Assembly: GCA_903813345.2 (NCBI GenBank)
Contig: CAIIXF020000008.1
Span: 24,290,822-24,354,821 of the forward strand
DNA length: 64,000 nucleotides
Source: Owenia fusiformis
Lineage: Eukaryota > Annelida > Polychaeta > Sabellida > Oweniidae
Direction of reading: 5' to 3'
The notes under the pieces were generated by a model that saw nothing but the letters and a program-made list of their open reading frames with translations, made no database searches and was not told the DNA's origin. Positions 2,797-56,909 of the stretch are shown here, in pieces. Numbering within the stretch: position 1 is the stretch's first letter; every line of letters starts with the position of its first letter. A program made the position numbers and the translations under genes.

Positions 2797-3475
2797 GAAA
2801 GCAGCAGATAATCTTAAAATAACTGCATGGAATGCGAATGGTTTTAATGCCAGCAGCCCTTATTTAAACTCATTGCTCGATAAAACTGATATTCTCTGCC
2901 TCACAGAACATTGGTTATATCCAGGTTCGCTAAACAAACTGTGTGATATTCATCCTGACTTTACTTGTGTTTGAGAAAGTAGTACCACACTTGATCCCCT
3001 AAATCAAGGTCACATAATTGGAAATGGTGGAATTGCTATTTTCTGGAAAAAATCGTTAAACCAAAATATTATTCATGTTACGAAATACAAAAGTGATAGA
3101 TACATGGTTATTAAAATATTAAGACCTGGTATTCATCACCTTTATGTTATTTGTGAGTATTTACCACATGTGCGATGTAAGAATGATAACTTCCTTGAGG
3201 TATTAGATAGGCTTGAGGTGATAATTAATGATTTACAAGGTGATGGTGACACTGTTTTAATGGGTGATTTTAATGCTGATTTTGGCAAGAACATTGGTAC
3301 AAGGGGGGGGGGGGGGGGCATGGTCAATCTCGGCTAATGGTGTAAACCTGTTAAATATGTGTAAACTTAACGCCAGTTGACATGCTCCCTATGTGTCAAG
3401 GTCCAAATTACACCTTCTTTAGGGACTACACGGGTCAGTCTTATATTGATCATTGCATTTTGAGTGAACGACTAG
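2797..3475 (+). pseudogene. LINE ORF2 endonuclease domain, 5' part
   Basis: Apurinic-type endonuclease (EEP) domain of a non-LTR retrotransposon. Visible motifs in order: ITAWNANGFN (catalytic Asn), ILCLTEHWLYP (catalytic Glu), GIAIFW, then VLMGDFNADFG (Asp-x-Asn). The frame is broken by a stop at about 2972 and by a G homopolymer at 3302-3318. It then continues to SYIDHCILSERL, where the foldback element at 3476 interrupts it. The remaining SDH motif is found after that insertion. Confidence 0.8.
3302..3318. repeat. Poly(G) run
   Basis: Seventeen consecutive G inside the LINE endonuclease fragment. It shifts the frame and probably grew after the element died. Confidence 0.9.
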
Positions 3476-3489
3476 TGGGTGTCTACAAA

Positions 3490-4310
3490 ACTAAGACCTA
3501 AGACCTACAAAACTAAGACCCCCCACGTTATAAAACTAAGACCCTGTTATAAAACTAAGACCCCCCACGTAATAAAACTAAGACCCTGTTATAAAACTAA
3601 GACCCCCCACGTAATAAAACTAAGACCCTGTTATAAAACTAAGATCCCCTACGTAATAAAACTAAGACCCTGTTATAAAACTAAGACCCCCACGTTATAA
3701 AACTAAGACCCTGTTATAAAACTAAGACCCCCCACGTTATAAAACTAAGACCCTGTTATAAAACTAAGACCCCCAACGTTATAAAACTAAGACCCAGTTA
3801 TAAAACTAAGACCCCCCACGTTATAAAACTAAGACCCTGTTATAAAACTAAGACCCCCCTGCGTTATAAAACTAAGACCCTGTTATAAAACTAAGACCCC
3901 CCACGTTATAAAACTAAGACCCTGTTATAAAACTAAGACCCCCCGCGTTATAAAACTAAGACCCTGTTATAAAACTAAGACCCCCACGTAATAAAACTAA
4001 GACCCCCCCACGTTATAAAACTAAGACCCTGTTATAAAACTAAGACCCCCACGTTATAAAACTAAGACCCTGTTATAAAACTAAGACCCCCCACGTTATA
4101 AAACTAAGACCCCCCACGTTATAAAACTAAGACCCTGTTATAAAACTAAGACCCCCGTTGTTATAAAACTGAGACCCTGTTATAAAACTAAGACCCCTCA
4201 CGTTATAAAACTAAGACCCTGTTATAAAACTAAGACCCCCACGTTATAAAACTAAGACCCTGTTATAAAACTAAGACCCCCCATGTTATAAAACTAATAC
4301 CCTGTTGTAA
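3490..4310. repeat. Minisatellite arm (left), about 21 units of 38-40 bp
   Basis: Alternating half units CTGTTATAAAACTAAGACC and CCCCACGTTATAAAACTAAG with small C-run length changes. The complementary array starts at about 4856. Confidence 0.92.
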
Positions 4311-4319
4311 GAATCAGTC

Positions 4320-4690
4320 ACCGTGCCTTGCTCTGCTGGCCGCAAGGTAGTCTTGCCTCTGGGCCTTGTGTTCCCCAGTTACATACAGATTCTACAAAAG
4401 ATAGTCTTGCTTCTGGTCCTTGTGTTCCCTTCTAATATACAGATTCTCCCCACTAACATAAAGATTCTACAAAAGGTAGTCTTGCTTCTGGTCCTTGTGT
4501 TCCCTTCTCACATTCAGAATCTACACATGGTAGTCTTGCCTCTGGCCCTTGTTTACCCTAGTAACATACACATATGGTAGTCTTGCCACTGACCCTTGTT
4601 TTCCCTAGTAACATACACATATACATAAGGTAGTCTTGCCTCTGACCCTTGTTTTCCCTAGTAACATACACATATACATAATTTTAAGGT
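4320..4690. repeat. Central degenerate tandem repeat of the foldback element
   Basis: About six units, roughly 50-75 bp, each containing GGTAGTCTTGCCTCTGGCCC, then TTGTKTTCCC and an ACATACA stretch. These occupy the loop of the foldback and are unrelated in sequence to the arms. Confidence 0.75.
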
Positions 4691-4855
4691 AGTCTCAAAA
4701 TTTCAAAGCTCCTATCATTTAGAGCAATATGTTGGACACATTTTCTGAAAATTCAAAATATTCTGTTCAGTGACCTTTCCGATACTCTTACTTTTAACTT
4801 TTTTCAGTCACATTTTCAGAGGGCTGAAAAACCTATTTTCAGCATGGTTAGGGTC

Positions 4856-5650
4856 TTACTTTTACAACAGGGTCTTAGTTTTATAACGTGGGAGGTCTTA
4901 GTTTTATAACAGGGTCTTAGTTTTATTACGTGGGGGGTCTTAGTTTTATAACAGGGTCTTAGTTTTATAACGTGGGGGTCTTAGTTTTATAACAGGGTCT
5001 TAGTTTTATAACGTGGGGGGTCTTAGTTTTATAACAGGGTCTTAGTTTTATAACGTGGGGGTCTTAGTTTTATAACAGGGTCTTAGTTTTATAACGTGGG
5101 GGTCTTAGTTTTATAACAGGGTCTTAGTTTTATAACGTGGGGGGTCTTAGTTTTATAACAGGGTCTTAGTTTTATAACGTGGGGGGTCTTAGTTTTATAA
5201 CAGGGTCTTAGTTTTATAACGTGGGGGTCTTAGTTTTATAACAGGGTCTTAGTTTTATAACGTTGGGGGTCTTAGTTTTATAACAGGGTTTTAGTTTTAT
5301 AACGTGGGGGGTCTTAGTTTTATAACGTTGGGGGTCTTAGTTTTATAACAGGGTCTTAGTTTTATAACGCGGGGGGTCTTAGTTTTATAACAGGGTCTTA
5401 GTTTTATAACGTGGGGGGTCTTAGTTTTATAACAGGGTCTTAGTTTTATAACGTGGGGGGTCTTAGTTTTATAACAGGGTCTTAGTTTTATAACGTGGGG
5501 GTCTTAGTTTTATAATAGGGTCTTAGTTTTATAACGTGGGGGGTCTTAGTTTTATAACAGGGTCTTAGTTTTATTACGTGGGGGGTCTTAGTTTTATAAC
5601 AGGGTCTTAGTTTTATAACGTGGGGGGTCTTAGTTTTGTAGGTCTTAGTT
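4856..5650. repeat. Minisatellite arm (right), inverted copy of the left arm
   Basis: Tandem units reading GGGTCTTAGTTTTATAACAG and GGTCTTAGTTTTATAACGTG. Reverse complement of the left array. Confidence 0.92.
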
Positions 5651-5671
5651 TTGTAGACACCCAACGACTAG

Positions 5672-6420
5672 TTAGTAAATGTGACTGTATAATGGTTCTT
5701 GAGAATGATCCTCTGAACTTCTCTGATCACTTACCAATTAAAGTTAAACTCCTACTTCAAGAAGGAATTATTCTTAAGAACCAAGTCATTCCACAAGAAT
5801 TGCATGGAAAAAAGTCTCTGAGGGGAATTTAAGAGATAATACTGTACAGAGGAATTAGAATCATTAATAAATCAGTATCTTAACCCTTTTGATGTCTAGT
5901 CTTGATGAATATACCTCAAATAATGCATTATTAGAGGAATGTTTTGACATGTTTACTCAGATTTTACACTTCTGGACGGTGGTTAAACTACTGTTGGGAG
6001 AAGGAAACATAATGATTAATGCCAATAGGTGGTCTAATGGAAAAATTTCCGTATTATGTAAAATATGCTATAAAGAACCAGAAACACTATCCCACATGAT
6101 ACTGGACTGTGAAGGTCATGATGCTTTAAGATCAAATATTTTGAAAATTGTATACAATATCTTCAAACCAGCACAAAATTATCCAAAAGAGATGATTCTT
6201 GGAGCAATTTTTGGTGCAGGGGAGATATTTGATGTCGAGGAATATAAGCAAATTGCTGTTTTCATCCATAAAATGTACATAAATAGACCAGAATTTGGTC
6301 TGTAACTAAAATTTAATTGTATATTATATATATATGTTATAATTATAAGTAAATAATGTAAAATTTATTTAAACACATCAAGTATGGTGGATGAAATAAA
6401 AAAAAATAAAATAAATACAT
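5672..6420 (+). pseudogene. LINE ORF2: end of endonuclease fused to C-terminal zinc-knuckle region, RT deleted
   Basis: The frame resumes the endonuclease directly after the foldback with NFSDHLPIKVKL (catalytic SDH). A short linker follows (to about 5965), then the extreme C-terminus: CKICYKEPETLSHMILDCE, a C-x2-C...H-x5-C knuckle found at the end of several non-LTR ORF2 proteins, ending at TAA about 6303. The whole reverse transcriptase, roughly 1.5-2 kb, is missing, so this is an internally deleted copy. The tail at 6395-6420 is A-rich (AATAAA repeats). Confidence 0.75.
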
Positions 6421-21785: not shown

Positions 21786-24700
21786 CTGCATGAAAGTAAA
21801 AGTTTGTATCAGTGAGTTAATATTTTAATATAGTTACATCATTTACTCTCAGCTTAATTTCAACTTCTTTACTATACTATACATCATTACAAAAAAGTAA
21901 ATTGATGATCATTAAAAATAGTATATATTCAATTTGCTTTTACAACTAGCATATATTCAAGTGCTAAAATAGCATATTTCAAATGTTTTCTGGAATCAAA
22001 AAGTAATAATGCCATTGTTAGTGGCATATACAATGAAAGCACAACATTTTAAATTAAACAAGGCGTTTGACCAAATGTCACCACCTGCAAATGGTTACAA
22101 AAGTGTAACAATTGTAACCGATGAAGGTCTAACATAGGTCAAATCTGTAGTCAGAAGCAAGTTAGAAAAATACCTTTAAAGTCAGATTTGAACTTCGAAG
22201 AATTTGTAGATGATTTTGAAAACAAAATCCAGTCAAATTGAAGCAAATTCAAAAAATACCTCTTTGACACTTTCTTGACCTTGAGAAGGTCAAATCTAAA
22301 GTCAGATTTGAACTTCTGAGAACTTATAGATGAATTTGAAATTTAAGCCAATCTAAACGGCACTTGTTATAATTTAAGTTGTAAGTTGTAAGATTTTATT
22401 ACAAGAATTTGTTACAAAAAAATTGACCTTTTGTCCTTGAGAAGGTCATTGCAGGTCAAATCTCAAAGCTACAGATTTCAACTCCTCAGACATTATACAT
22501 GATTTTGAGAGAAATCGCAGCAAGTCTAAACTGTGGAAGTTGTAAGATTCTGTTACAAGAATCTGGTGCCGACCACCATCCAGAAAAAGCTGTTTTCTGA
22601 TGTCACAAGTAATTGTTATTTGATTTATCATCCCTCTAGAACAACTCATGTTAAGTATAAAATGTATATATCATCTATGACTTACCTCAGACCTTGAGAC
22701 AATAATACGTATCAACATTTTGTCATTCGTCCCAATACCACTTGAAGCCTTAAGTAATCTCTCAGCATAGAATACAGTCACATCCTCAATAGCACCAACT
22801 AAACACAAAAAAATAATGACATGACTCAAATGTTAGAAGTACCAAAACGATATCAAAGACAACATTGATCCTTTTGCATTGAAATTTTAAAATAGTTAGT
22901 TTTCTACCTACCCAAATCCATCCACTGATATTTTAGCTATAAAAGATTACGTTTTTAAAGAAAAATTTAACCACTTTCTTGAAAATTCCTTCTTGAGCAG
23001 AGTTTTTTTGTCCGGCATCAACATATGAAATTTGAACCATATCTGTCCACTGGTACTTGAGTTATCAAAGATTATGTTTCCTTATGAAAAATGGCAGCTA
23101 TTCATTACAAGGTCACTTGCAATATGATGGAATCTTCATTAAAAATTTAGAAGATTCAAAATTCTTCCAAAATTAGAGAGTTTGATTTTTTGTGTCATCC
23201 TGTAAATGAGAATGTGACACAAGAATCAACATACCCAGTCCAAGGTAAGCATCCTCAGCGTCTCCAGATGCAGATTTCTTGATTCCCTCCCTGATGTCAT
23301 CTCCTGCTAGTGCTTTATACTCCTCAATCAGGGCCCTCACTTGGGCACGGTTCTGCTTGGAGAATATCTCAGTGAACTTCTCTTCCTTCACCTTCACAGC
23401 TTCCTCATCAACCTTGTGAATAATAATAAAATCATTTTAGATATGATTATTACCAATCAAAGGACATGGAGAGGGGTCAATTGGTATTTACAAATGACAG
23501 CAAAGAGCTATAAATCAATTTATAGAATCAAAAGAATTTTATTACACATTCTTTGCCAAAACCTTTGAAGCGGTGGCTAGATTAGCCCTTTAAGTTTTGA
23601 AAGAGTAGCCTGGATTATGCCTGAAAATTAGATATTATGCAAAAGTTTACCAATGTGATTCATAGAAATTGTTGAAACACATTGGATGATCTTCAACAGC
23701 TTTCACTTAGAGATACAAGTTGAAAACCCTACCATATGACAAAAGGGACACTATTTAAGCAGAAAACACATTTCACACTTTCATTGATCATTTTGAAGCA
23801 GTATTAATCGTTCAACAGTTCATGGGTATGTTACCTACACCAACATTTAGAGGAGGGCCTCTTGTGGAAGGAAGTTGTCCCCCTGTGACCAGGAATCTGA
23901 AAAGCCCTTCATTAAATATCTTTAAAAAATCAAAAGAAAATCCAATATTCAATGTTTTGAGCCATATTTCATTAGAATCGGTCCATGATTTATGAAGATA
24001 TTGACATTTCAAGATCAAGGGGTATGTTCGTGATTTCACTGGAAAATGTTATCGTCTATGGAAACTTAGAACATTTCTTTGGATCACAAGAACTCTGCAA
24101 CTAACAAAGGTAGGATGCTAGTTTTAATCTGTAATGTGTGGGATTCAAGATTGAACAAAATGAGAAAATATTACTAGTAGTTCTTTAAGACTGCAGCCTA
24201 AAAATTGTGAGGGGAAGGGTGTTGAAGGTTTGAAGATATTGACATTTCAAAATAAAGGGGTATATTCGCGATTTCACAGGAAAATGTTATCGTCTATGGA
24301 AACTTGGAACATTTCTTTGGATCACAAGAACTTTGCAACTTACAAAGGTAGGATACTAGTTTTAGGCCATAATGTACGAGAGTCACGATTGAACAAAGTG
24401 AGAAAATATTAGTTCTTTAAGACTGCAGCCTAAAAAATGTCAGTGGAAGGGTGTTGAAGGGTTGAAGAATCGTGGATATTGAAAATCACATTTTATCCAT
24501 TTTCAGTTATATTTGGTTAGGGCTTATTATTTCTGCAAAATGTATGGTGAAAACATCAATTTTAGACTTTCCTCTACAGCATGTGAAAATATAAAAGAAT
24601 TCCTACAAGTAATAAGGGAAATATGTCCCGTTGCAGGGTTTCACTTTTTTGGACCACCCTGTTTATAATAAGCATGATCATTAGAGTGAGTGAACTTACA

Positions 24701-27700
24701 TCATATATGGCCTTTGCATCATCTTTTGCTAGCTGATTGTCTACAGTTGTACCTTGGTCCCTCTCTCCCTTCACCAGCTCAAGTAAGATATCCTTGAAGT
24801 CACCACTGGTATCATCTTCTATGTCCTCACTAAGTTCACTGTAGAACTCTGCAAACAGATTGAGGGAGATGTCAATAGTCTACATGTATGTTTAAGATCA
24901 GGTTAGCTAATATTTCAAACAAATATGTCTCAGGTTGAGTACTTTTTCTTGATTTTTCTTTCTTTTCTTACATGTAATTTGAGTTGTTCTAAGATGAAGC
25001 ACAATGAAAATTGCCCATTATCTGCAAGGTATTTACAGGGTAGATGATTTCAAATATTTTAATAACTACACACCATGTGAATATTGATGTATACTTATAC
25101 ATACCTTTTTTATAGTGCTCCTTTATAGCTGACAGTTGCTTGGCATTGCGTGTGGACAACACACCTATGAGAACAGCTTCACTTGTTCCTGCTCCATCCA
25201 TCGCTTCATGGAGACAGTACGCATCGTACTCAATAGGTGGCATCAATAGTCCAAGGATGACCTCTTCAAAGTCACCTGTCAGTTCACCTTCAAGTTCCTC
25301 CTGTAGATCCTGGTACAGAGAAATATTTGATATTTGTTAAGTCAAAATTTATTAGCAGATGAGAAAAGTATCCATAAAAGTTATATCCAATTACAAGATT
25401 GATTTAAAGTTTGTGTCAATAAATAAGTTCTTCTTCTTAATATATATGCTGCATCAATCTACTCACATTGTCTCACATGCTTCCCATACATGTATTGCAA
25501 ACAAATGGAGAATTAAATTTCAACCATTGAACAATTAAATGTTATGTCAGAGGCTAATATATGAGTGTGTACACACATATCTTTGTTGAAAAGTCTCAGC
25601 CTAAATTGTTCAAGAACAATACATGTAGACCAGCTGTAGGCTTTGGGCAAGCCTAATGTACTTTTACTGTACATGGTCAATTGCCTAACTGTATACCATT
25701 TTACCTCTACAAGTTCTAGTACATACAATCATGAATTGTGTTTTACTCATAACAAAGCAGTTGTACTAGCAGTATATTTACCTGAATCACTGTGTCCAGG
25801 GTATTGAATATGTGTTCCAAATGTATGGAACACACCAACTTTTAACTTTATATAAATTATTATATTTCATATATCACCCTTGGTATACGCAGCTAACGAA
25901 AATTGACCGGTACGGGTCAAAAGCTGGACTGGTACGGGTTAACGGTTTTATTTGAATTTAAAACAGTCATAACTTGCTCAATATTGACTTCCTAGTGTCT
26001 AATTTGAAATATATGATGCCTCCCGATGCTTTTAAGTACCCTAATTTTTTACAGATTTTTAAACGGACCAAAACTCTCTAAATGCGCATTTATGGTCTTT
26101 TCTCTCGAGAACAACTGTCTCATTTTCACGATAACTTTTATTTAGTACTTCTAACATATAAGATCTATTTTTCCCCATCAAGGTATGATGTAAATGACAT
26201 GCTATTTACATCTTGTGAGTTTCAACGACGCGCGTTTGATTTTATAAAAAATGCCAAACTTTGTGACAAAGAATTTCATCCTGCTTGCAGCGAGAAGACG
26301 GACCGGTTCTATCGCCCCGAACCGACAATGTTTGATTTTCAGGAACTTACAGACACATACCTCAGACCCCTCTTTTACCCACCCCTACCCCATGATCAGT
26401 AGCTGCAATTCGATCCCTTCAACAGAATTATTATGTTTTTAAATTCTACAGATTTTATTTTATAATTGTCCTTTGATATTTGAATCTCAAATATGCTTTC
26501 TAAGGTAAACTTTTATATTGGGACATGAAATGCCTCAACCCTGTCTATTCACTGTATCTTTGTATTTATGAAATAAACCTATTGATTAAAAAAAAAAATT
26601 CAACACATTAACTCCCCTACTGCTCCACAAAAAATCATCTAAACACTTACTTTCTCATACTTTTCTTGATACTTCTTCTTGATCTCTTGCCTCTGTTCAT
26701 TACTCCTGCCAGATAGTATCTGTATCAGAGGTCCTTCGTTGGTGCCCCACCCTTGGATTGCATCATGGATATCCTTAACATCACTATCAACATTAAACTT
26801 ACTGGCAGGCTTTATTGTCCCACTTGTTTTAGGTTCCTCTTTATCTTTGGATTGTTTGTCTTTATCCTTGTTGTCAGAGTTTTTATTATTCGATTTATTT
26901 GTACTGTCTGTATTGGATTTTTTACTAGGTTTGGATAGAGGACTGTCTTGGGGAGCAGATGCTTCCTTCTTCTGCTGGGGTTTACGCACTGGATCTCTCT
27001 TTGGGGGACCTGTCACCTTTACACCACTTGGAGGCATCTTCTTCTTAGCTTGTTCCTCACTCTGAAGACACACATGTTTAATTATAAATTGCATTTGCAG
27101 TCACTGTCAGTGTTGTATACATGATTGTACAGGTCATTGCTATGAAGCATGACCAATGAAGACAGTGTCGTATACATGATTGTGCAGGTCATTGATATTA
27201 AGCACGACCAACGATGTCAGTTGTGTATACATGATTGTGCAGGTCATTGTTATGAAGCACGCAAATGATGTCAGTGTCATATACATGATTGTACAGGTCA
27301 TTGCTATGAAGCACGACCAATGATGTCAGTGTCGTATACATGATTATGCAGGTCATTGTTATTAAGCACGACCAATGATGTCAGTTGTGTATACATAATT
27401 GTGCAGGTCATTGTTATGAAGCACGACCACTGATGTCAGTGTCATATACATGATTGTACAGGTCATTGCTATGAAGCACGCAAATGATGTCAGTGTCATA
27501 TACATGATTGTACAGCTCATTGCTATGAAGCACGACCAATGATGTCAGTGTCGTATACATGATTGTGCAGGTCATTGTTATTAAGCACGACCAATGATGT
27601 CAGTTGTGTATACATAATTGTGCAGGTCATTGTTATGAAGCACGACCAATGATGTCAGTGTTGTATACATGATTGTGCATGTCATTGTGATTAAGCACAA

Positions 27701-30700
27701 CCAATGATGTCAGTTTTGTATATATGATCGTGCAGGTCATTGTAATTCAGCACAACCAATGATGTCAGTATTGTATACATGATTGTACAGGTCATTGTTA
27801 TGAAGCACGACCAATGATGTCAGTGTCGTATACATGATTGTGCAGGTCATTGTGAAAAACTGCATGCACAATGACATCAATTCAACACCAGAGTGATATC
27901 TCATGATAAACAGTGAAAGATTTCTTATTAAATAACTCTACCTTCTTAATTGCTTTGGCCTGCCCAGGAGGGTTTTTCTCTGCCATGACAGCAAGTACCT
28001 TTCCAGAGGGTCCACAATGTTTGTAGATATCATCAGCAAGCTCTGTGCCATACTTCTTCTTGTAAGCCTTGCGTATTGCACCCAAGTTAGTCTGCAAGGT
28101 CAATGAATTGTGTTGTATTAAACAAGACACACAGTTATAAATAACACACTTTGAAGGCCAAAATGATAACCATGTATTTTACCCAGCACACCAACAACCT
28201 AATCAGATCTTGGCACTGGTCTTACATAGTCTGGTCTTACATCTGTTTAAATTTCGAGATGAACGTATAAATGGGAAAGGGTGGCAGACACAAATCAACT
28301 AGAAAAACAGCAACTCCACGGAGTAGCAAATCCCACCGAACAAAACATGTTTTGAAAAAAAAATTGACCCAAATTCATCCACTGGTATTTGAATTATCAA
28401 AGATTATGTCTTTATGAAACATGGTTGCCATTTTGAAATTCAGCTGTCATCTTTAGATTTCTTCTTTAGCAGAGAATGTCCGTCCAATGGTATCTAGGTT
28501 ATCAAAGATTACATTTTTAATGAAAAATGGCAGCCATTTTGAAATTCAGCTATCGCATTTGAAATTTCTTCTGAAGCATATCTCCATTTTCCCTAAACAT
28601 CAGCATATAAAATTGGAACCAAATCCATCCACTAGTATTTGAGTTATCATTAATTACGTTTTTTTACGAAAAATGGCGGCCATTTGAAATTCAGTGGCCA
28701 TCTTGAAAATTTATTTTTGAGCAGAACTTCTTTGTCTCTAGGCATCAGCATATAGAATTTGAACCAAATCCGTCAACTGGTATTTGAGTTATCAAAGGTT
28801 ACGTTATTTTATGAAAAATGGCGGCCATTTTGAAATTTAGCTACCACCTTGAAAATCCCTTCTTGAGCAGAGCTCCTATGTCCCTAGGCATCAGCATCTA
28901 AAATTTAAACCAAATCCATTCAATGGTATTTGAGTTATCAAAGATAACGTTTTTTTACGAAAAATGGCCGCCATTTTGAAAGTTAGCTGCCATCTTGAAA
29001 ATCCTTTCTCGAGCAGAGCTCCCTTTGTCCCTAGGCATCAGCATCTAAAATTTGAACCAAATCCATTCAATGGTCTTTGAGTTATCAAAGATAACGTTTT
29101 TTTTTCGAAAAATGGCCGCCATTTTGAAATTTGGTGGCCATCTTGAAAATGTCTTCTTGAGCAAGGCTCCTTTGTACCAAGGCAACAGCATATAAAATTT
29201 GAACCAAATCCATCTACTAATATTTGAGTTATTAAAGATTATATTTTTTCCGAAAAATGGCCACCATTTTGAATTAAGCGGCCATATTGAAAATTTCTTC
29301 TCGAGCAGAGGTCCTACACCCATAAGGCATAAGCCTATGAAATTTGAATGAAATCCGTCAACCGGTATTTGAGTTATTGCCCGGACACACGAACGGACGG
29401 ACGGACGAACGGACGGACGGACGAACGGACGGACGAACGGACGGACGGACGGCTTTTCTATATCCCCCTCGAACTTCGTTCGGTGGGATAACAAAGTACA
29501 AAATATAAAATATTAAAATATCTATTTACTATTTAAAAGATCATAGTTCTTAGCTGTCCTAACTTTCTAAACAACTGCATACAATAAACTACTGCATACA
29601 AAAACAGCCAACACCCAAACTCATGAGTGATTGAATGTGACCTATATACATGTATATATATTATATATATAATATATATATATAACATGAAGACATGAAT
29701 GAAAAGTAAAAACAAACACAGCATGAAACAACATACAAAACTGGTTTAAACAATAGAACATATATACAAAAGTGACTGGCAAACAACATGGTTATAAATA
29801 TCTGAAATACTGGATGTACTTTCTGGCATTATTTTGGACATTGTTCAAACATTGATGTTGGTTGAGGCCTAATAAAGATGTACCATAGTTGAGTATAGGC
29901 TGGACTAAAGAGTCATAAAGCTTGTTGTAGACTGAGAACTCCATACCTCCGGTTTGCTTGTATTTACTAATGATCACACTCAAGGCTCTATTAGCAGATT
30001 TTGCAATTTCTCTAGCTGAATGTGTTGGATCAACATGTTCTTGTAGCCAGATCCCGAGATATTTTTAAGTGTCTGTATAATCCAGATCAAAGTCTCCACA
30101 CTTAAAAGCAAAGTCTGACCTCGGATGACAATTAGGGCGGTAATGAACTACTTTTGATTTACGAGGGTTAATCAAAAGTCTCCATTTGCCATTCATGAAG
30201 AGTATTTTTTCAGCCATGCTCGCAATAAGTGCTATGTCATCAGCATAAAAGAGGATACCTATATTCTGGTCCTCTATTTGTATTCCACATTGTAGACGAT
30301 TAATATCAGAAACTAGGTCATTGACATACACTGAAAATAATGTTGGAAACAGCCCTCCCGAAAGCCATTGGTTACATTTACTTTGGGAGATAGAACACCA
30401 TTGATGCAGATGTTAAAAGTGACATCTTGATATAAAGATTGGACAGCTTTAAACATTTGATACTGATCTTATTAGGTTTATTCCATAGGCAATCTCTATT
30501 AACACTTGAGAATGCTTTAGTTGCATAAATATAGCAGATGAAGGTGTCAAGCTTAGAAAGTTTTATACTGTTAATAATTGAGTAAACGCTGTGGACTTGT
30601 TCTTGACAGCCGCGACCATGGTGAAAACCCCATTGTTCACCATGAATCAGATTATTGTCCTCAAGGAATTTAGTTAGGCGCTTATTCAAAATATCAGTGT

Positions 30701-33700
30701 AGACCTTGCATGGCACGGATATTAATGTGACTGCATGATAGTTCAATGGGTTATATGTTTCTCCATCATTGTATATTGGGTGTATTATACCCTCCATTCA
30801 CTGAGTTGCCACGATGCCAGAGTTAAAGCATAATGACATAATTCTGTGTAGCATGGTTAGAATTTAGTGAAGGTCAAGCAAAGGTAAAATCTCAAAACTA
30901 AGGTCAGATTTGAACTCCTGAGAACTTGTAGATGATTTCTTTAAAAATTGGTCAATTTGGAGCAAGTTGAAAAATTCAAAATGGCCTGCTTATAAAATAA
31001 ATTCAAGATGGCCATCATGTAGTTAAGCCTGAACACACCAAAACCTAATCAGATCTTGGCACTGCAGTCTGCTGTTACATCTGTCTATATTTTAAGTTTA
31101 ACGTGTGAATGGTTTTCCTGAAATTCTGATGATAAGATTTATGAAAGAACTCTAAATGGCCACCAAGTAATTCACTAAGCATGCCCTTAACCTAATCAGA
31201 TCTTGGCACTAAGTGTGCTCTTGCATCTGTAAAAATTAAAAGTTGAACAGGCAAGCGGTTATCCTGGAAATTAGATGACAAGATTTGATTTATGTTGTGC
31301 CCACTCACTTGCACACCCACACGCACGCCCACACCTCCCCCATCAGCACAAGATGATGACAATATAATACTTAGTAGTATAGTATTTTAAAGTGTGATAA
31401 TATACACTGAAAAATGTACTTTTTTCTATTATTCATTTATTAAATCACATATAATTAATGTACAAATACAATATGATTCTTAAGTCGCCAAAGGCATTAT
31501 ATAAGAATGTAAGGGGGCAGGTGGATGTTGTAGTGGCTAGGCAGGCAGGATGAGGGCTGGAGCAGGTGTGACATAGGATAGTTTAGGTCATTGGAGGTGG
31601 AGGGTATTAGCTATTGTTCAAAATAAAGTTAGTCATGAGTATCAAGATTTTAGAGTTCAAATCTATGTTTATGTTGTTGTCTAATATATTTTATTTTTTG
31701 TGGACCGTTGTTAAACCCCTCAATAATAAGTAAATGGTAATGTTGACAGGTCCTCAACAAGTGAAAACATATGTAGGAATATATGTTTTATCATTTAAAC
31801 TAATCAAAACGATTGTAGGATCAACAGGAGGAAACAGCTTTACTAAGGCTTATCCGAAAAATTCCTTTATCACTGATAATCTCCATTTTAAACACCAGTC
31901 AGGATTTTTACCTGGACATACATGTAGTACCATACATCAATTTTTATCCATTGAACATTTTCTCCAGTGCACTTTTGAACAAGGAAAAGTCCCAATTTTT
32001 TAGACACAGCCCCAGCATAAGCTTTTACTTCACAAACTTAAGGCATCTGGCCTGCGAGGGCAAATTCATAATATCATCAAGTCATACCTAAGTAATAGGA
32101 AAATTGCTGTTCAGTTCTCTGGGGAAATTTCAAACTACCAAGAATCGGACTATATCAGTTGTGGCGTCCCCCAGGGCTCAATACTTGGGCCAATATCATT
32201 TTTGTTATACACTAATGACCTTCCAGATAATCTGGATGGTCATTGCTATATCTAAGCAGATGACACCTCATAGCTTCACTCATTTGACCCCAAACATCCA
32301 CAGGAAGTAGATGTTTTGTTTAATTCAAATTTATCCAATTTTGAAACATGGTCCAACAAATGGCAACTGGAGTTCAAACCTGGTGGTGATGGTCATTGCT
32401 ACATTTATGCAGATGATACCTCATTACACCATCCTTTTGACCCAAAACAACCACAATAAATAGAAGCAGTGGTAAAATCCAATCTAATTAAAGTAGAAGA
32501 ATGGTCTAACACTTGGAAACTTAATTTTAAACCGGAGAAGAGTTCCGAGATGAATTTCCACTCACCTAGAACAAAAATTGATAAGGTGTCAACCTCAAAA
32601 CTAAACAATGTAGAAATCAAGAGATACCGAGCACAAACATTTAGGACTCATTTTTGACCCATGCTTATCTTATGATAATAAGAAAAATGTTAAACCCGTT
32701 AAAGAAACTCAAATTCAAGCTTGGGAGTAAGCACTTAGAAACAATCTTCAACTCATTCATTCTTCCTCACTTTGATTATGGTGCCATTTTATATGGCACC
32801 ATAGAAGCACAGCTTCTAAATTTCTTTTGCGAAGACTCCATAGTCTATATTACACAGCGGCTCTCTATTGTTCTGGCTGCATCCAAGGGAGCAGGACAGA
32901 AAAGGTTCGAAGTCTCCTGAACTGGTCAACACTTGATTCCAGACGTAGAATACAATCAAATAATTCTATGTTCAAAGTTGCCGATGGTACAAGCCCCTCA
33001 TATATCACAGACATTTTTGATAAGTACATGTATGGTAATGTTAGATATAGAAACTTGAGATACATTGATCCATTCAAAATGCCCATAAGATGCTCTGCTA
33101 GATTTTCATCCTAAGCAATACCTTCTGCAATCTCAAAATGGCTTTTTTAAAGCTCAATTTTATGCCCATAATTTTAACTCTGTTGACAGCCCTAATTGTG
33201 CTTGTGGCAGCCCTCAAACCTTAAAGCACATTCTTTTGCAACTTGCTGAATTAGAACCTTCTCTCAATAATAATCTTCCTCAGAATGATTTTATCTCCAT
33301 TTTGAAAACAGGAAGCCCAAACTTAAGCATAGATATAAACTCTGAAGCCATTTCACTGACACTTGACTTCACAATAGCTAATTCCATCCCTCATGTCTCT
33401 CTCTGATATCCTGTTGTCCTGTCACACCTGCTCTGGTCCAGGACCCTGTCTGCCTGCCTGCCACCCCCAGCCTCTCACCATTCCTATATAATGCCCTTTG
33501 GCAATTTAGGGATGCTATTGTAACTGTATTTTAAACTATATCAATGAAATAAATAATAAGAATGATAAAAAAACTTCAAACCTGCAAAGAGCTTTGAAAT
33601 GATTTTCCATACTAATGGGACAAAAATAACGAGTCTCAACTTCTTAACTGAACAATGTTGATATCACAAGAAATCCAGAACATTGACACCTACATTTTCA

Positions 33701-39700: not shown

Positions 39701-42700
39701 ATGAACAAAATCGGGCCAGCGGTATTTGAGTTATTGCCCGGACATACGGACAGACAGACGGACGGCAAATAGCCGGACGGAGGTGTTCCCTATATTCCGA
39801 ACTTTGTTCGATGGGATAAAAACCCAGGCACCAGACTACTGAGACACTCTATGCCTTACATTATTCCCACTTATGTTTCTACCATACTCCCAAAAGCCCC
39901 CGTCTTAAATATTATACAAGAACACAAATGTGTACAAAATGTCCCCACCTATGGGTGATCCTGTCAAATGGTTATCCTAAAAATGAGTAGACAAGACTTT
40001 ACCGACACAATTTGATTATGGAAAATCCAAAATGGCCACCTTAAAATTTACCTAGAATGCCAAAAAACTAATCAGATCTAGATTTTCATACTAAGAATTA
40101 TCCCTGAAAATTTGAAATTGATCTACAAAACGGTTCACCTAAAAACGCGTAGACAAGACTTTACAAGCAGGATTTTAAGACGGAAAATCCAAAATGGCTG
40201 CCTTGACATTTATCCAGAATGCCAAAAAACTAATTAGATCAAGATTTTCATACTAAGAATCATCCCTGAAAATTTGAAATTGATCTACAAAACGGTTCAC
40301 CTAAAAACGCGTAGACAAGACTTTACAAGCAGGATTTTAAGACGGAAAATCCAAAATGGCTGCCTTGACATTTATCCAGAATGCCAAAAAACTGATCAGA
40401 TCTAGATTTTCATACTAAGAATCATCCCTGAAAATTTGAAATTGATCTACCAAACGGTTCACCAGGAAATGCGTAAACAAAACTCTACAGACAAGATTTT
40501 AGGACGGAAAATCCAAAATGGCTGCCTTGACATTTACCCAGAATGCCCAAATACTAATCAGATCTAGATTTCATACTAAAAATCATCGCTGAAAATTTGA
40601 AATTGATCTACAGAACTGTTCACCTGGAAATGCGTAGACAAGACTTTACAGACAATATTTTAGGACGGAAAATCCAAAATGGCTGCCTTGACAATTACCC
40701 AGAATGCCAAAAAACTAATCAGTTGTACATTTTCATATTAAGGATCATCCCTGAAAATTTGAAATTGATCTACAGAACTGTTCACCTGGAAATGCGTAGA
40801 CAAGACTTTACAGACAATATTTTAGGACGGAAAATCCAAAATGGCTGCCTTGACAATTACCCAGAATGCCAAAAAACTAATCATTGTACATTTTCATATT
40901 AAGAATCATCCCTGAAAATTTGAAATTGATCTACCAAACGGTTCACCTGAAAACGCATAGACAAGACTTTACAGACAAGATTTTAGGATGGAAAATCCAA
41001 AATGGCTGCAGTATGTCCAAGTTACGTTTAACGTCAGTGATATAGGAACAATTCAAAACATAATCATAAAATGTTCAAGTGCAGTATACATTGCCAGTTT
41101 CTTCCTAAATCGTGGTATATGTACATTGCCCAATATAGCATATCATGACTAAAAATAAAATGTTAATACATGTACAGTACTGAGAAACACCATGAGGAGT
41201 TTCGAAACTACTGTAGTTTGATTGATCTTTAATGAAATGTCTCTGAAGATGTGTATGTCCTCAAGATAAGAGAAGTTCTTGCAAATCTGGTTGAACCTAC
41301 CTAGTGCAGAGAAGGCCTCTGCAAATTCCTCTGTGCATTCCTTATCAACCACATCAGTTGCAGCTTTCCCCGAGATCTAAAAACAATAATAAGTCATCAA
41401 CTATGGGGTATGTCGAAGGTACATGTAGGTATAGTAAAATACAACATAAAGGGGAATTCAGAGAGTATAATTGTAAATAATTGTAAAACAAGGCATTATT
41501 CATGACAAAATGCTACTTATAAGGGGAGGCATCAAAAGTTCTATGTCGGATCGGAAACTAAATAAATCTAGTTTTGACTCTGTCCCCCCCTCCCCCCCAA
41601 AACTAAATACCATGAAAGTTGATCACTGACTTCCCGTTCGAGAATTTTAAACACAAACTAGTTTTTGTTAATTCCTATCGTAATTTGCGGCTTTTAACAA
41701 CTATTGATGGAATAGAATCCATTGGAATGATCTTGACGAAGAAAGCAAAATCTTTATTTTTAAACCATTCCAAGGCATTCTGAGTCGAAATTGCCCAAAA
41801 TTTGAAATGTTGAAATTTGTCGGATAGCAAACTGAAATGGGTTTGAACCCCCTCCCCCCTAACTAGATTTATTTAGTTTTCTATCCGACATCGAACTTTT
41901 GATGCCTCCCCTAAGTATAGTAGTTAGTTTGCAAGCTAGTTATTGCAAAAGTGTAGCAATTTGTTACATGCACTGATAATGACCACTAGCTACTAACAAG
42001 AACTGATGGCTCTAACAATATGGCATCACTTTTTGGTGGTGAAATAATTTTTAGGGGGATTAAGCATACTAGAAAAATACTAAATGTTTTCTGTAAATAT
42101 CATTTCTGTTAAACGTATTAAATGTTTTTGTATGAAATTGTAATATGGCGTAGACATTGAAAATATTTTTAAGGTTTAATAGAATATTTGATTGTTACCT
42201 GTTTATAAGCCTTCAGTATGGCATTGAGTTGTGGCAAGCTTTTCTGTGAGAGCAATGTCAGAAATACTTCAGAGTCTTTATCCCATCTACCATCCCCAGC
42301 CTAAAACAACAGCATTAGATAATTTACATAAATAAAATACAGAAAAACAAGTTTAAGAAAAACAAGCTTATTGGCAGCTTATAATCCTTCCTATATTTAA
42401 TAATTTTTACTAAGTTAAGAAAGATTTCAAAATTGTTCAAATCAAGAAGAATGTTTCATCTCTCAGCGTAGAAAATCAATTAATTTCACAGTAGTTGCAT
42501 GGAAACCTTGACATCTCAGTGGCATTGATCTGTAGAGTTCCTGTAGAAAACCACTAATTCCGTGCTGTGCAATTGATTAACACATTGGAGAGGTTAAGTT
42601 ACACATATTCAACAAAACTTGAACATGAACGTCAATGCGTGCAAAAAAATGACGTCAGATTTGTTTATTTTTTACATGTCAAAAGTTAAGTACATGTTTT

Positions 42701-48700: not shown

Positions 48701-51700
48701 CTGAAACCAATGGATAGCATGAGTTTTTTCAATGGGGAAATAACATGAGGAACACTAATCTTTGAGGAATTCAGTTTTTCTTTCAGGAACTAATTGATAC
48801 ATTAAAATAAAGAAAAGTAATGCATCAAACATTGTAAAAACTAATTGCATTTTTGGTGAAAAAGAGGTAGACATCTTGAAAAAGTATGTTGGTCGTTTGA
48901 TCGCTTACTCAATATCATTGTATATGCTTTTCTTTTGAGATAATGAATGGATCTAAAAAATATACCTGTCTCCGTGGTCAGAAATTAGTTATTATCCAAG
49001 ATATAAATGTCTGAAAATGTTTGGGATATTCTACATGATTTAAAAAAGTTTAGACAGTATGAAGCAAGATGAAATCAGTTTTTAACAAAATACTGCAATC
49101 GACCAGGCACCATATGATGAATCGGAGCAAATGTGACTTAGGCATTACTGAGGATTTTGTTGGATTTTTGGAGACACAAATAATTCAATATCCGGGTTCT
49201 TATTCTGACTTTGTGCAAAATTCCCAATACTTACCCGGGAATAGTGCAAAACCTCCACTTAAACAAGAAACCAACTCCCACAAGGCATTTGCAATAATAG
49301 TCAATGTTATCCTACCAGATCATACTGATCCTTGAATCTCCCGGCAAGCTCTTTCCTGTATGCAGGGGTCTTCTTAATGAGACATCTAATGAGGATGTCA
49401 TCTGGGTCACCTGAATTGCAAAAAAGTATTAAGTAGAGTATTCAGTTAATTCATATGTACCAGGCAGATTCAAGCAAATATTGAACTTTTAAATAATATG
49501 AAGGCGAAAAGGTATGATTAAGTATTCACAAATGTAAATAAATAAATGGGATAGATGTGTGATTTTCCAAGCTTGACATGTGCAAATCAGGCTGGAATAT
49601 AATTCATTCAATTGATTAGCAATACTTTTGTGACTGTCAAAACATTTATTTATTGAATAATTGGACATTTTAGCAGTAACAATTCATGTTGCCCTTGCAT
49701 TTCCTTATACATGTACATGTATGTCAGTACTGATGCGTTTCAAAATGAAGTAGTGTTTGTATGATGCAAGTATTGCAGTTTTTCCACAAATACAATTAAG
49801 CCAACATGTGACTTCTAAAAGCTACATTCAGGTACAGCTACAAATCTTTACATGCAGAATCATTGTTTAAGTATGAGTTTATTGTTCCTTTCCATCTACG
49901 AAAGGGAGACAGTGTGTGTGCATAAGTCTAATAAACAGCATAATATGATAATAGTACCAGTGTCGATGTTAGGTGCCAGCGTGTTAAAGCCCCCATATAA
50001 AGTTTAAGCCACTTTGGCTCATAAATTTGTTCATGATATGAATATATTATAAGCAATGAACTCATCCATGCATTAAAACAGTTTAGAGAAAAATGCATTT
50101 CAAAATTTTAGTTCTCATAGACACCAATGGTAAAACATAATGTATTATTCTTTTCTCAAATCATTGTAGTAGGCACCTGAGAGTGAAGAGTATCTCATCC
50201 TCACTCTCATTAGTGTCACATATATAAAGCACATTTTCGCTCCTCCAGGGGTGTATTGTGCAGTTTTAATGTTCCAGTTCTTAGTTTTGCAAGGATATAT
50301 ACTTCTATCCATCACTTTATTTTGTCTTTTTAATTGGCAAATTATTATAGAAAAAATACATGTATATAATCTCATGCCAAATAAGGTATTGTAGGTAATA
50401 TCATGCAACATATCGTATAACATGTATCCATGAGTCAAAACTAGAAGACATCGACTCCACGTAGTAACAAATTCCACCAAACAAAATAATGTCAAAACAT
50501 GTTTTGATAAATAGTGGCCATCTTGAAAATTTTGGAACTTACCTTTTTAAATATGCCTCTATGTATCAGCATAAAATATTTGAATCAAATCTGTCTACTG
50601 GCATTTGACTTATGAAAGATGATGTTTTTACAAAAAATGGTGGCCATTTGCCTTGTTAAAGATTATGTTTTCTTACAAAAAAGGTGGCCATATTGAAATT
50701 CAGCTGCAATCCTGAAAAATTTCTTTTTGAGCAGAGCAGTTTTGTCCCGAGGCACCGGCATATAAAATTTGAATCAAATCCATCAACTGGGTTATCAAAG
50801 ACTACACTTTTAATGAAAAATAGCAGCCATTTTGAATTGAGTGGCCATATTGAAAATTTCTTCTCAAACAGAGTTCTTCTGCCCCTATAGGCATCAGCAT
50901 ATAAAAGGATAGGTATCGATATGGCAAACATTTTGAACACACGTTTCTCTTAAACCAGTCATCAAAAACTTCTGAAAAGGAGCACGTAGGTTATCGCAAA
51001 CAATTTCAGACAATTCTAACTTGAATTATGAATATTTTCTGATCATGAACATGGGTGTATCTTTTAGATCCATTCATTGTCTTCAAGAAAAGTATATACG
51101 ATAAAAAAGTATATTGATAATTTAGTTAATCAGACCTAAGTGATATTGAAGGGGCAATGGACCAATCAACATACTTTTTCAAAAATGTTGACCTAATTTT
51201 CACCAAAAATGCAACATGTTCGATTTATTAAAAGGAAAAGTTAATTGCACCAGGAACTTTAAAGATACTGAATTTGGATGACCAAAATGAACTGAAACCA
51301 ATGGATAGCATGAGATTTTTCAATGGAGAAATAACATGGGTAACACTTATCTTAAAGCAATTAAGTTTTTCTTTCAAGAACTATTTCACTGTATGTACAG
51401 TGATCGCCTACTATTAAAATTGGGTGATCAAAGACTCGACAAGATGCGCAAAATTAGAAATGTCGGAGGAAAGGTATGTTTGTTTCTCTTCTCTTTACCA
51501 CCTTAATGTCATTTTACCTACAGATGGTATTCTATATGCTGTATAAGAGACTTAAGATTCATTTGGTGACAGGATCCAGTGATTGGCCCAACCGAAATAC
51601 CTGAACTGAGTTGATAAATGAAGCAAAATCAAAAACCCGCCGAACGAAATGTATATTTCTCCAAATTATCTGTTTTTAGATTACCAACACCAGAACAATG

Positions 51701-54700
51701 ACATGCCTATGGTTAATGTACATAATACTTAACATTACATGCATATCAAACGTTCCAACTCCCATTCAGTATCGAGTAAGAAGGTTGTTATGAAAACAAT
51801 TTATGATCAGCCAAGTGAGTGATTTTACCATGTGGATTCTAATGATATGTTCTTTTAGCATTTCAGAGTGATTGGGTTTACATGATTTTACTGACCTTCA
51901 TTTCGAACTCCTAAATTTCAAATCATTATAAACCACCTTGTAGAACATCATGAAGAAAAGAGATGAAGATGAGAAAGATTACTGAAAATAGAGGCAAATT
52001 TAAAATGATAACAAGAAATTTCTCTGGAATATTACCAAATGAAGTGAAATCAATAAATAAACACATACTTGTAGAAAGTGATGAATTTATGACAATTTCA
52101 GTGATTGACAATAATCGAATGTAATCATCCAAAATCTCTGATTCAACTGCTACAAAATGAAATAAAATTACCATCATTAGAGATAATAGCATGGTACTTA
52201 TTTCACACTTTGTAGAGTTTCTCTAAAAACGCCCACTGGGTGTTTATTTTGCATTCGATTACATACAATTCTAAAATTCTCAAGCTAATCACCTATAGAC
52301 CTTAGTTGAAAATTGATCAATAAATCTACTGAATATTAAACTTTAGAGGAGCTTAAACCCTTATACCTGTCATTTATATATGACCCAAGCTAGCCACCTC
52401 ATGGTGAAACTGGGAACTGACTTCTGGCATCTACTGAAGGTTATTACGTCATTACATTTTAATATAACTTATTGATACCCTGCTGCAAAAGAATGATTTA
52501 ACTCCCCAATGAAATAGATAATGTACATTTCAGATTTTATATTTTATAAGTTTATTATTAGGCCCCATGTCCAAAACAGGCACAATCATGACAATGGGCG
52601 ATACAGTGGGATCAGAGGGTAAAATAAATGGACTGAAATGGGACTTTAAAAACTGTTCCACGTATAAGGTGTTACGCTTCAAGAGGTTTCACTTAGCAGG
52701 TTCTACTGTAAAGTGTACATATCATTTAATGGTAATGTATTCAAACCTAGGCAGAAACAAAACGACGCACACACATTGACCATTTAATTAACTGAATCAG
52801 TGAACAGTGATGCACATGTTTATTTTGGACATACATTTTGCGAGAACCCCCATTTTTCTTCTCTTGAAAAGCATGTATGAAAAGGGTGTATGGTTTGCTG
52901 AAACTTGCGCTATAGGCTGATCCATTCGTTTCTGTGTTAGAATATTTATTCCATGTTATTTAAGAGGAAACGTGAATTTCATCACGGTCAAATGGAAGCC
53001 CAAGACCCTACCTAAGTATTAAAAATTAAAGAGAGTAAAGAATGTTCTATTGTTTTTGATATTTTTAAGCTTTTTAAATGAAATAACACATATTACTTCG
53101 TATTTATATCTTTACATCGTAAAATCAATAACATTTACGAAAAATGGTCAAACTGATATACTGTATATTTCTCAAAGCATATGGGTGTTCTTGTGCCTAC
53201 AAAACCTAATTGAATCACCAGTAGCCTTTAATATAAACACAAATAAATCTTTTAGAAATAACCGTTACAAAATATTTGAATTTTGCGCATCTTGTCGAGT
53301 CTTTGATCACACACTTTTTATAGTAGACGATCACTGTACATACAGTGTATTTGATACATCAAAATAGAGAATAGTAATGCATTGTAAAAAATGATTGCAT
53401 TTTTGGTGAAAATTGGTTCAACATCTTTGAAAAAGTGTGTTGACGGGTTGATTGCTAGTTAAATATCTCCGAGTTTGACTTTATTATTACTGTATATAGT
53501 TTTCTTTGAGATAATGAATTGATCTAAAAGATAAACCTGTCTTCATTGTCAGAAAATAGTCATAATCCAAGATATAACCTTCTGAAATTGTTTGCGATAA
53601 CCTACGTGCTCCTTTGACACATTGTCAATTTAATCGTCATCTTTTGAATGGTAACAATATAATTTGAAATAGATAGATGGGACTTGTGTTGTCTCGGCTA
53701 CTATATATTATTTTCTATATATTGTTTTAGAAAACACATCGGACACTTCTTCTGTTCTTGGTATCATATGTTCGGAATGAAATGAAACATCTATCCGAAC
53801 CTCATTGGAACAAAATGACATAAACACAACGTGTCTCTCAATATTGTAATTATACAAAGGAAAGTTTGGTTGATTTAAGAAAAGTATCTTGTTAATGAAA
53901 TTAAAGGTTTATCTTAGTTTTTATCTATTTCAGGGGTTTTTGTTTTAATTTTTTGAATACTTTTTGTTGGATCAACCAAAATTTCCTTTGTACAACTATA
54001 ATATTGGGAAGTCTAAGAAAATGTTGTATATGCTATTTTGTTCGAACAAGCTTCGGAAAGATATTTTATTTCATTCTCAAGAAATGGTAAAAAGGAACAA
54101 AAAACAATTACACTAAAAAACAAAAAATGTTTACAAAAACAGTTATATAAAAAAATATATATAAATTATTTTCGCATTAAATTGTTGTCAATCAGTCAAC
54201 ATTACATAAAGGACCAAGTTTTTTTACAGAATGTATTCAATTATTGGTTAAAGAGAAAAACATTGTTGAATTCAGTTCTCCATATCAATACCAATCCTTT
54301 GAACCAAATCCATCCACTAGTATTTGAGTTATCAAATATTACGTTTTTTTATAAAAAATGGCAATTTTGGTATTTGGCATCCTCCGATCACAGGGCTTCA
54401 AAATCCAGAATATCTTCTTTCTTTTTACACCCTGCTATAAGCAGTTAGCAATTCCCCGATTAAGAACTCGCAATCTGATTGGCTGTCGCAACACTGCGAC
54501 AGAAATCATGTATAAGTCATTGCGCATAATTAGATCACGTGATTCAGTTAAATCGGGCGCGTCCAAATTGGTTATAGCAGGGGGAAGAAGGAGGTACGTA
54601 TTCTGGACACCTGCTTAGGAGGATGGGTATTTGGTGGCCATCTTGAATATGTCTTATTGAGCAGAACTCCTTTGTTCCTAGGCATCAGCACATAAAGTTT

Positions 54701-55556: not shown

Positions 55557-55929
55557 CTGAAATAAAAAATAAATAGTATTTATTTCAAAAGAAAATACAA
55601 TATTCTCAATGAAACTCAAATAGAAAATTCCCTGACTTCTCTTTGATTCAAGCATGTTATTTTGGTAGTTTTCATTTGTATTTTCTCATTTCATATCATC
55701 AGTTTGTGGACTTTTCAACTTTCCAAAACACTCACTTAAAATTCCCTTGAGTTCTTCCTGACTTCCTGATTTTCAATTCGAAAATTCTCTGATCATTTTA
55801 GCTATTTTAGAGGAAGTGGTAACCCTATAGTTTGTAATCCAACTTATTGGTATGCTTCCTCTGGTAGCATTGGTACACATTTTCTAATAACGGAAGCTCT
55901 GAATTTTACTATGGACACTTTTTATTTTA

Positions 55930-56909
55930 CAGGGTGGTCCAAAAAAGTGAACCCCTGCAACGGGCCATATTTTCCTTATTACTTGCAGGAATTCTTTTTT
56001 ATTTTCACATGTTGTAGAGGAAGGTCTAAAATTTATGTTGGTACCATACATTTTTCATAGTCTTGAAATTTGCAGAAATTATAAGCCCTAACCAAATATT
56101 ACTGAAAATGGAGAAGATGTGATTTTCAATATCCATGATTTTTCAACCCTTCAACTCCTTTCCCCTGAGAATTTTTAAGCTGCAGTCTTATTTTCTGACT
56201 TTGTTCAATTTTAAATCTTTCACATTATGGCTTAAAACTAGCATCCTACCTTTGTTAGTTGCAAAGTTATTGTGATCCAAAGAAATGTGTTTAGCTTCCT
56301 CAGACGAAAATGTTTTCCAGTGAAATCGCGACCATACCACTATATGATCTTGAAATGTCAATATCTTGATAAATCATGGACCAATCTTAATGAAATATGG
56401 CTGAAAACATTGAATATTGGATTTTCTTTTGATTCTTTAAAGATATTTGATGAAGGGGTTATCAGATTCCTGGCCACAGGAGGCAACTTCCTTCCATAAG
56501 AGGAGCCCCTCTAACTGTTGGTGTAGGTAACATACCACTGAACTGTTGAACAGTTAAAAATGCTTCAAAATGATCAATGAAAGTGTGAAATGTGTTTCCT
56601 GCTTGAATTGTGTTTCCTGCTTGAATAGTGTCCGTTTTGTCATATGGTAGGGTTTTAAACTTGTATCTCTAACTGAAAGCTGTTCAACAATTTGTGTGAA
56701 TCACATTTGTAAAATTTTGTACAATATCTAATTTTCAGGCATGTTTGTTAAACTCTTGTAATTTCTTCAAAAAATTAAGACTGAGAATAAATTATGGCAT
56801 CAACCAAAATTTTAGATCTTTCTCTACATGTGATAATATGAGCCAATTCATGCATGTATTTAGAAAAATATAGCCTGTTGCAGGGGTTCACTTTTTTTGG
56901 ACCACCCTG
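55930..56909. mobile_element. Mariner-like MITE, CAGGGTGGTCC ends, TA target
   Basis: Left CAGGGTGGTCCAAAAAAGTG, right complement. Inverted ends of about 36 bp with ACCCCTGCAAC. TA at both borders. No transposase. A homologous inverted copy with internal duplication lies at 23600-24661. Upstream of annexin exon 1, or in a further 5' intron. Confidence 0.82.

Follow-up and report, generated by a model that had tools for sequence, protein, structure and literature searches.

The window (the whole stretch of 64,000 nucleotides that was analysed) contains at 3476-5663 a unit of 2,188 bp that lies within the remains of a LINE. Its long inverted repeats consist largely of tandem repeats and enclose a middle domain, the arrangement by which foldback elements are recognised. 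We consider it very probable that this unit is a foldback transposon, and as a best reading a non-autonomous one, because its ends match, an exact target-site duplication adjoins them, the anatomy is that of arm, loop and arm, and the joined flanks restore a continuous reading frame. The same observations bear out what a sequence-only reading of this DNA had claimed, namely that a foldback transposon moved here as one piece. The component parts and the features to which they relate are collected in Table 1.

Table 1. Coordinates of the foldback unit, its parts, the interrupted LINE and the second copy of the loop segment (window positions).
Feature	Position	Strand	Remarks
LINE endonuclease, upstream part	2975..3304	+	Exo_endo_phos over Pfam cut-off
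Endonuclease frame up to insertion site	3355..3476	+	resumes at 5673-5829 in the empty-site reading
Target-site duplication, left copy	3467..3476	.	AACGACTAGT; 8-bp core ACGACTAG at 3468-3475
Left terminal inverted repeat tip	3476..3498	+	TGGGTGTCTAC, then first AAAACTAAGACC motif
Left arm array, A/B half-units	3509..4310	+	18 A, 20 B; TRF and unit cut
Loop tandem repeat	4344..4681	+	around GGTAGTCTTGCCTCTG; unlike the arm unit by inspection
Loop segment with diverged copy	4705..4855	+	core 4737-4855, 85%; left edge approximate
Right arm array, inverted	4851..5637	-	18 A, 19 B; one degenerate half-unit at inner edge; outer edge 5637 from unit cut, TRF end 5619
Right terminal inverted repeat tip	5641..5663	-	23/23 match to left tip
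Target-site duplication, right copy	5663..5672	.	8-bp core 5664-5671
Endonuclease frame, remainder	5673..5829	+	SDHLPI motif
Further LINE remnant	5871..6302	+	zf-RVT match sub-threshold, 18.5 bits vs cut-off 27.5
Other copy of loop segment	57900..58070	-	core 57900-58020; outer edge approximate

Anatomy of the unit and its insertion site

The left tip reads TGGGTGTCTACAAAACTAAGACC, and the right tip is its exact reverse complement over all 23 positions. The length of the target-site duplication depends on how the outermost T/A is counted. In the 8-bp reading, ACGACTAG stands flush with both tips and the ends are TGGGTGTC; with the outermost T/A counted as target, the duplication becomes the exact 10-bp AACGACTAGT, and the element would begin and end with GGGTGTC...GACACCC. 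A random pair of 8-mers from the window agrees with a chance of 5.7e-5 and a random pair of 10-mers with a chance of 1.5e-5, and we therefore conclude that the ends and the duplication are not fortuitous. The matching termini and the exact 8-bp duplication that had been reported earlier are thus confirmed, and the duplication length can be corrected to 10 bp if the T/A is counted in this manner. Movement as a unit is indicated both by the duplication, flush with the ends, and by the reading frame across the joined flanks. Further copies of the 23-bp end were not found within the 64-kb window, with up to six mismatches allowed.

The arrays that form the arms were located by TRF at 3509-4310 and 4851-5619, with a period of 42, and together account for 1,571 of the 2,188 bp (about 72%). 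The earlier description of two opposing minisatellite arrays that make up about three quarters of the unit is accordingly retained, and its period of 38-40 bp has to be replaced by 42 bp. This repeat is a dimer, composed of half-unit A (AAAACTAAGACCCTGTTAT, 19 bp) and half-unit B (AAAACTAAGACCCCCCACGTTAT, 22-24 bp), the units being cut at their common motif. The left arm comprises 38 units (18 A and 20 B) and the right arm 37 (18 A and 19 B), in counts that leave out both terminal units and, in the right arm, a degenerate unit at the inner end; array copy numbers are those of the assembly. Alternation of A and B is interrupted only by double-B steps, two of them in the left arm and one in the right.

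Units of both kinds deviate little from their consensus. In A units, 4 of 342 bases differ in the left arm and 3 of 342 in the right; for B units the figures are 20 of 460 and 11 of 437, or 16 and 7 differences once the length of the C run (5, 6 or 7 C) is disregarded. The innermost unit of the left arm was trimmed to 19 bases for this comparison. So few differences imply that the arrays are recent or kept uniform. By inspection, a TTGTAA variant is common to the innermost A units of the two arms, and the tip motif TACAAAACTAAGACC agrees with the start of most half-units, TATAAAACTAAGACC, at 14 of 15 bases. From this likeness, the array most likely arose from the subterminal motif of the element itself, and not from an unrelated satellite.

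The loop was said to hold a tandem repeat different from that of the arms, and TRF indeed detects one there (periods 47-54 bp), which spans about 4344-4681, around GGTAGTCTTGCCTCTG. The loop is overlapped by 19 stop-to-stop ORFs of 25 aa or more, and Pfam recognised no transposase in any of them; a few Pfam matches were listed for these ORFs, all of them under their cut-offs. The right part of the loop is the one piece of the unit for which similar DNA was found elsewhere in the window: 104 of 122 columns (85%) agree between 4737-4855 and the minus strand at 58020-57900, and the match probably reaches back to about 4705. Aligned to the 58-kb site, 4691-4850 scores 188; for 296 other stretches of equal length from the window, the highest score is 68. 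The match extends as far as the border of the right array, where it ends in TAGGGTC, and AGGGTC is found within the array unit as well. By inspection, the 58-kb site, which lies some 53 kb from the loop, is without arms or termini. The segment and its copy would be either a dispersed repeat present at both sites or local DNA captured by the element. An alignment that carried the homology left of about 4705, back to 4502, was gap-ridden and has been discounted.

What did the insertion site look like before the unit arrived? As the site stands now, the frame that enters from the left meets a stop codon inside the element. Joining the flanks with a single copy of the duplication yields an open frame of 93 codons across the junction. 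We compared 89 residues of this frame with PDB: the top two of the 10 matches listed were LR1 (E 0.036) and LTX (E 0.07), which we take to be LINE-1 endonuclease variants, seven of the 10 were sequences named LINE-1 (E 0.072-0.56), and the remaining one, a phage protein, is unrelated (E 0.62). Against LR1, the residues that span the junction, SERLVSKC, align gap-free with SKALLSKC, and conservation extends to the SDH motif. In Pfam, the joined stretch remains below the cut-off (12.9 vs 27.4 bits, E 0.1); the upstream piece at 2975-3304 exceeds that for Exo_endo_phos (26.9 vs 24.5 bits). The joined frame and the alignment to LINE-1, with its weak E-values, support the view that a LINE endonuclease was interrupted precisely. 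The LINE is damaged beyond this interruption: upstream lie two stops and, just past 3302, a long run of G, and the space between the endonuclease and the zf-RVT remnant is scant for a reverse transcriptase. This LINE copy had decayed before the insertion took place, and is older than the transposon.

Superfamily, known foldback systems and the predicted hairpin

To which superfamily does the unit belong? Going only by target length and G-rich ends, it would most likely be a member of the Mutator superfamily. MULEs have duplications of 8-11 bp and long inverted repeats (PMC6446971), and a duplication of either 8 or 10 bp falls inside this range. The same type of element might be moved by the transposase of another superfamily, be it P (as for Galileo), Merlin or hAT, its arms having then arisen independently of the Mutator foldbacks; this we regard as rather unlikely, and it overlaps with our preferred explanation, of which it touches the superfamily part only. 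P and hAT elements duplicate 8 bp of target, which fits the 8-bp reading; against them stands that their ends usually start with CA or TA. If 7-8 bp is allowed for P elements, the 8-bp reading again agrees, and no P-type transposase was detected among the loop ORFs. Merlin elements possess 5'-GG ends and duplications of 8-9 bp (PMC8101967). Such ends fit the unit; symmetric GG ends, however, entail the 10-bp duplication, a misfit that an asymmetric 9-bp reading could avoid. A 10-bp duplication together with GGG ends suits a MULE, not the 8-9 bp of Merlin. In favour of another superfamily it can also be said that foldback arms arose in more than one of them (PMC4079207, PMC3573991, PMC3169594, PMC3688188). 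The Mutator assignment nevertheless appears to us the most likely.

How does the unit compare with foldback elements already described? FB of Drosophila melanogaster and TU of the sea urchin have long inverted repeats that consist mostly of short tandem repeats, as well as duplications of 8-9 bp; we liken them to our element by description, and not by unit sequence. Muta1, a MULE of Aedes aegypti with duplications of 8 or 9 bp, shares with the present unit inverted repeats in which a short terminal motif is followed by tandem subterminal repeats (PMC5225508). In Muta1, which is mobile and encodes its own transposase, a 12-bp repeat occurs 9 times in arms of 145 bp (PMC5225508), whereas the arms studied here extend over about 800 bp each, with 42-bp dimers as their building blocks, and none of the loop ORFs was recognised as a transposase.

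Tm1, the Mutator/Foldback element of root-knot nematodes, has composite inverted repeats of variable length that contain tandem repeats, and it includes non-autonomous members, likenesses to our unit in both respects; a Phantom-like transposase stands behind its arms, 45 of 53 complete elements show duplications of 8-10 bp, and its arm pairs are on average 93% identical (PMC3169594). Unlike the unit described here, with its identical tips and A/B dimer, Tm1 has a repeat unit of 13-15 bp and asymmetric 7-bp tips (PMC3169594). Tetris, a foldback of Drosophila virilis whose placement in Mutator rests on the length of its duplications and on analogy to other elements of this type, is apparently non-autonomous, has tandem repeats in its arms and makes duplications of 8-10 bp, all as in our unit; the arm repeat of Tetris, TIR-220, is by its name a much longer unit, and the likeness is one of description (PMC4079207). 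Galileo, of the P superfamily, likewise has long arms that are internally repetitive, but differs by 7-bp duplications, a P-type transposase and an arm tandem-repeat region of about 210 bp per copy, in two or three copies (PMC3573991, PMC3688188). Transposase-binding sites have been demonstrated in the arm tandem repeats of Galileo (PMC3688188).

Within one open-access library, in which foldback and Mutator elements with tandem repeats were looked for, we did not meet this family, and the papers there that matched the motif letters were unrelated, as judged by titles and the starts of abstracts. Exact matches in viral_contigs numbered 0 for the 22-bp end and 0 for an 18-bp stretch of the array. 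Two AAACTAAGACC motifs 6-14 bases apart occur in 20 viral and 9 prokaryote contigs, which we rejected as relatives; around the match all 29 contain short direct repeats, with at most six motif copies on the matching strand (up to one mismatch), and by inspection none exhibits A/B alternation.

Folding of the whole element as the plus strand gives a predicted MFE of -1447.6 kcal/mol with 926 pairs, in agreement with the very long hairpin that had been anticipated. Could the unit then be a functional dsRNA locus, where a read-through transcript would form a hairpin of about 800 bp and give rise to small RNAs that silence the family? The great stability of the predicted fold is in line with such a role, as is the association of long MULE inverted repeats with siRNAs (PMC6446971). 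Folding of this kind is, however, expected of any long inverted repeat, and the site lies within a decayed LINE. By analogy with those MULEs a role of this sort is conceivable, and we think it quite improbable.

Order of the arm units and proposed origin

Are the two arms copies of one another? They are 98.2% identical over aligned columns (759/773), with 99 gap columns, and units of different arms are no more distant from each other than units of the same arm (permutation p 0.95 for A and 0.55 for B). The order of the units conveys a different message. We cut the right arm into 18 segments and shuffled the 15 interior ones, with the first two and the last fixed; in 285 of 300 shuffles the alignment to the left arm was no worse than that of the real order. 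Unit shifts of -4 to +4 did not reveal arms in register (best p 0.10), in unit classes that contain two misassigned B units, one right B unit being missing and one left B unit also being entered as A. Local duplication of adjacent B units was not detected at lags 1-3 in either arm (lowest p 0.21). An origin of the arms by simple inverted copying predicts that they match in register, and both in-register tests failed. The order tests are limited in power, many units being equal to the consensus; within that power, the arms have unit types in common and not a unit-by-unit history. The earlier notion of homogenised arms is hence upheld as regards a single pool of variants, and not as regards order. 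Taken together, shared pool and unshared order argue against one arm being a recent inverted copy of the other, and favour turnover inside the arms combined with exchange between them or with joint recent growth.

We propose that a transposase encoded elsewhere in the genome inserted the element as one piece into the decayed LINE, an event that would have duplicated 8-10 bp of target. The arms most likely grew when the subterminal motif was amplified in tandem, by slippage or by unequal exchange, and inter-arm exchange or joint recent growth would keep them one pool. As in Galileo, the arrays plausibly serve as multiple transposase-binding sites. A more far-reaching proposal, which we hold to be quite improbable, sees in the arms a selected double array of A and B binding-site types, with 18 A each by way of exchange, and adds the capture of host DNA: about 150 bp of the loop would stem from the site 53 kb away and be joined to the array at AGGGTC. 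If true, this would make the unit the foldback counterpart of Pack-MULEs.

It is very unlikely that the arms are an artefact of reads or assembly, produced by a folded-back read or by a collapsed or expanded array. Tandem and inverted repeats do assemble poorly, the runs of 5, 6 or 7 C in B units resemble homopolymer errors, and a long G run lies just past 3302. A folded read, however, predicts the same order in both arms, which is at odds with the unshared order found here, and it predicts a mirrored loop and mirrored flanks, while the flanks differ from each other. The idea that a minisatellite and its inverted duplicate formed in place, with no transposon involved, appeals to the tandem repeat that makes up most of the length and can be dismissed in view of the identical tips, the flush exact duplication and the frame that is continuous on joining the flanks.

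Foldback elements are already known as a kind, and the general importance of the unit is modest. As a transposon inserted into a decayed LINE, it offers a clean case, with a readable empty site, of foldback arms that are nearly pure arrays of their own terminal motif. With this one element, it becomes testable whether such arrays are selected transposase-binding platforms or runaway tandem repeats.

Other repeats and coding stretches of the window

Upstream of the foldback unit, the 537 bp at 1773-2309 read almost alike on both strands (87.8% over 542 columns) and are thus hairpin-like. The first 30 bases of this stretch (CACTGGTGATCCACTCGATTACGC...) are the same at both ends, and TTTGT is present on each flank. 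The 5-bp duplication and CAC ends suggest a cut-and-paste family other than that of the foldback unit; a Transib-like element would be one lead.

Across the window, no Rfam matches were obtained at gathering scores, and ARAGORN predicted 0 genes. An annexin-coding ORF on the minus strand (26642-27100; Pfam 49.3 bits, cut-off 25) has a long charged N-terminal stretch and is adjoined by a 55-bp tandem array at 27105-27853. A piece of LINE reverse transcriptase lies at 30381-30797; the annexin ORF, this piece and the endonuclease at 2975-3304 point to an animal. Further tandem arrays have units of 145 bp (28479-29377, with related stretches at 50646-50906 and 54629-55191 that are 21-26 kb off and 73-78% identical) and 162 bp (about 6 copies, 39966-41009). 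Near the right end of the window, a repeat with a unit of 346 bp, in part tandem, occupies 62687-63982. An inverted dispersed pair, 23695-24662 and 55929-56684, is 82-86% identical in two stretches of about 450-500 bp.
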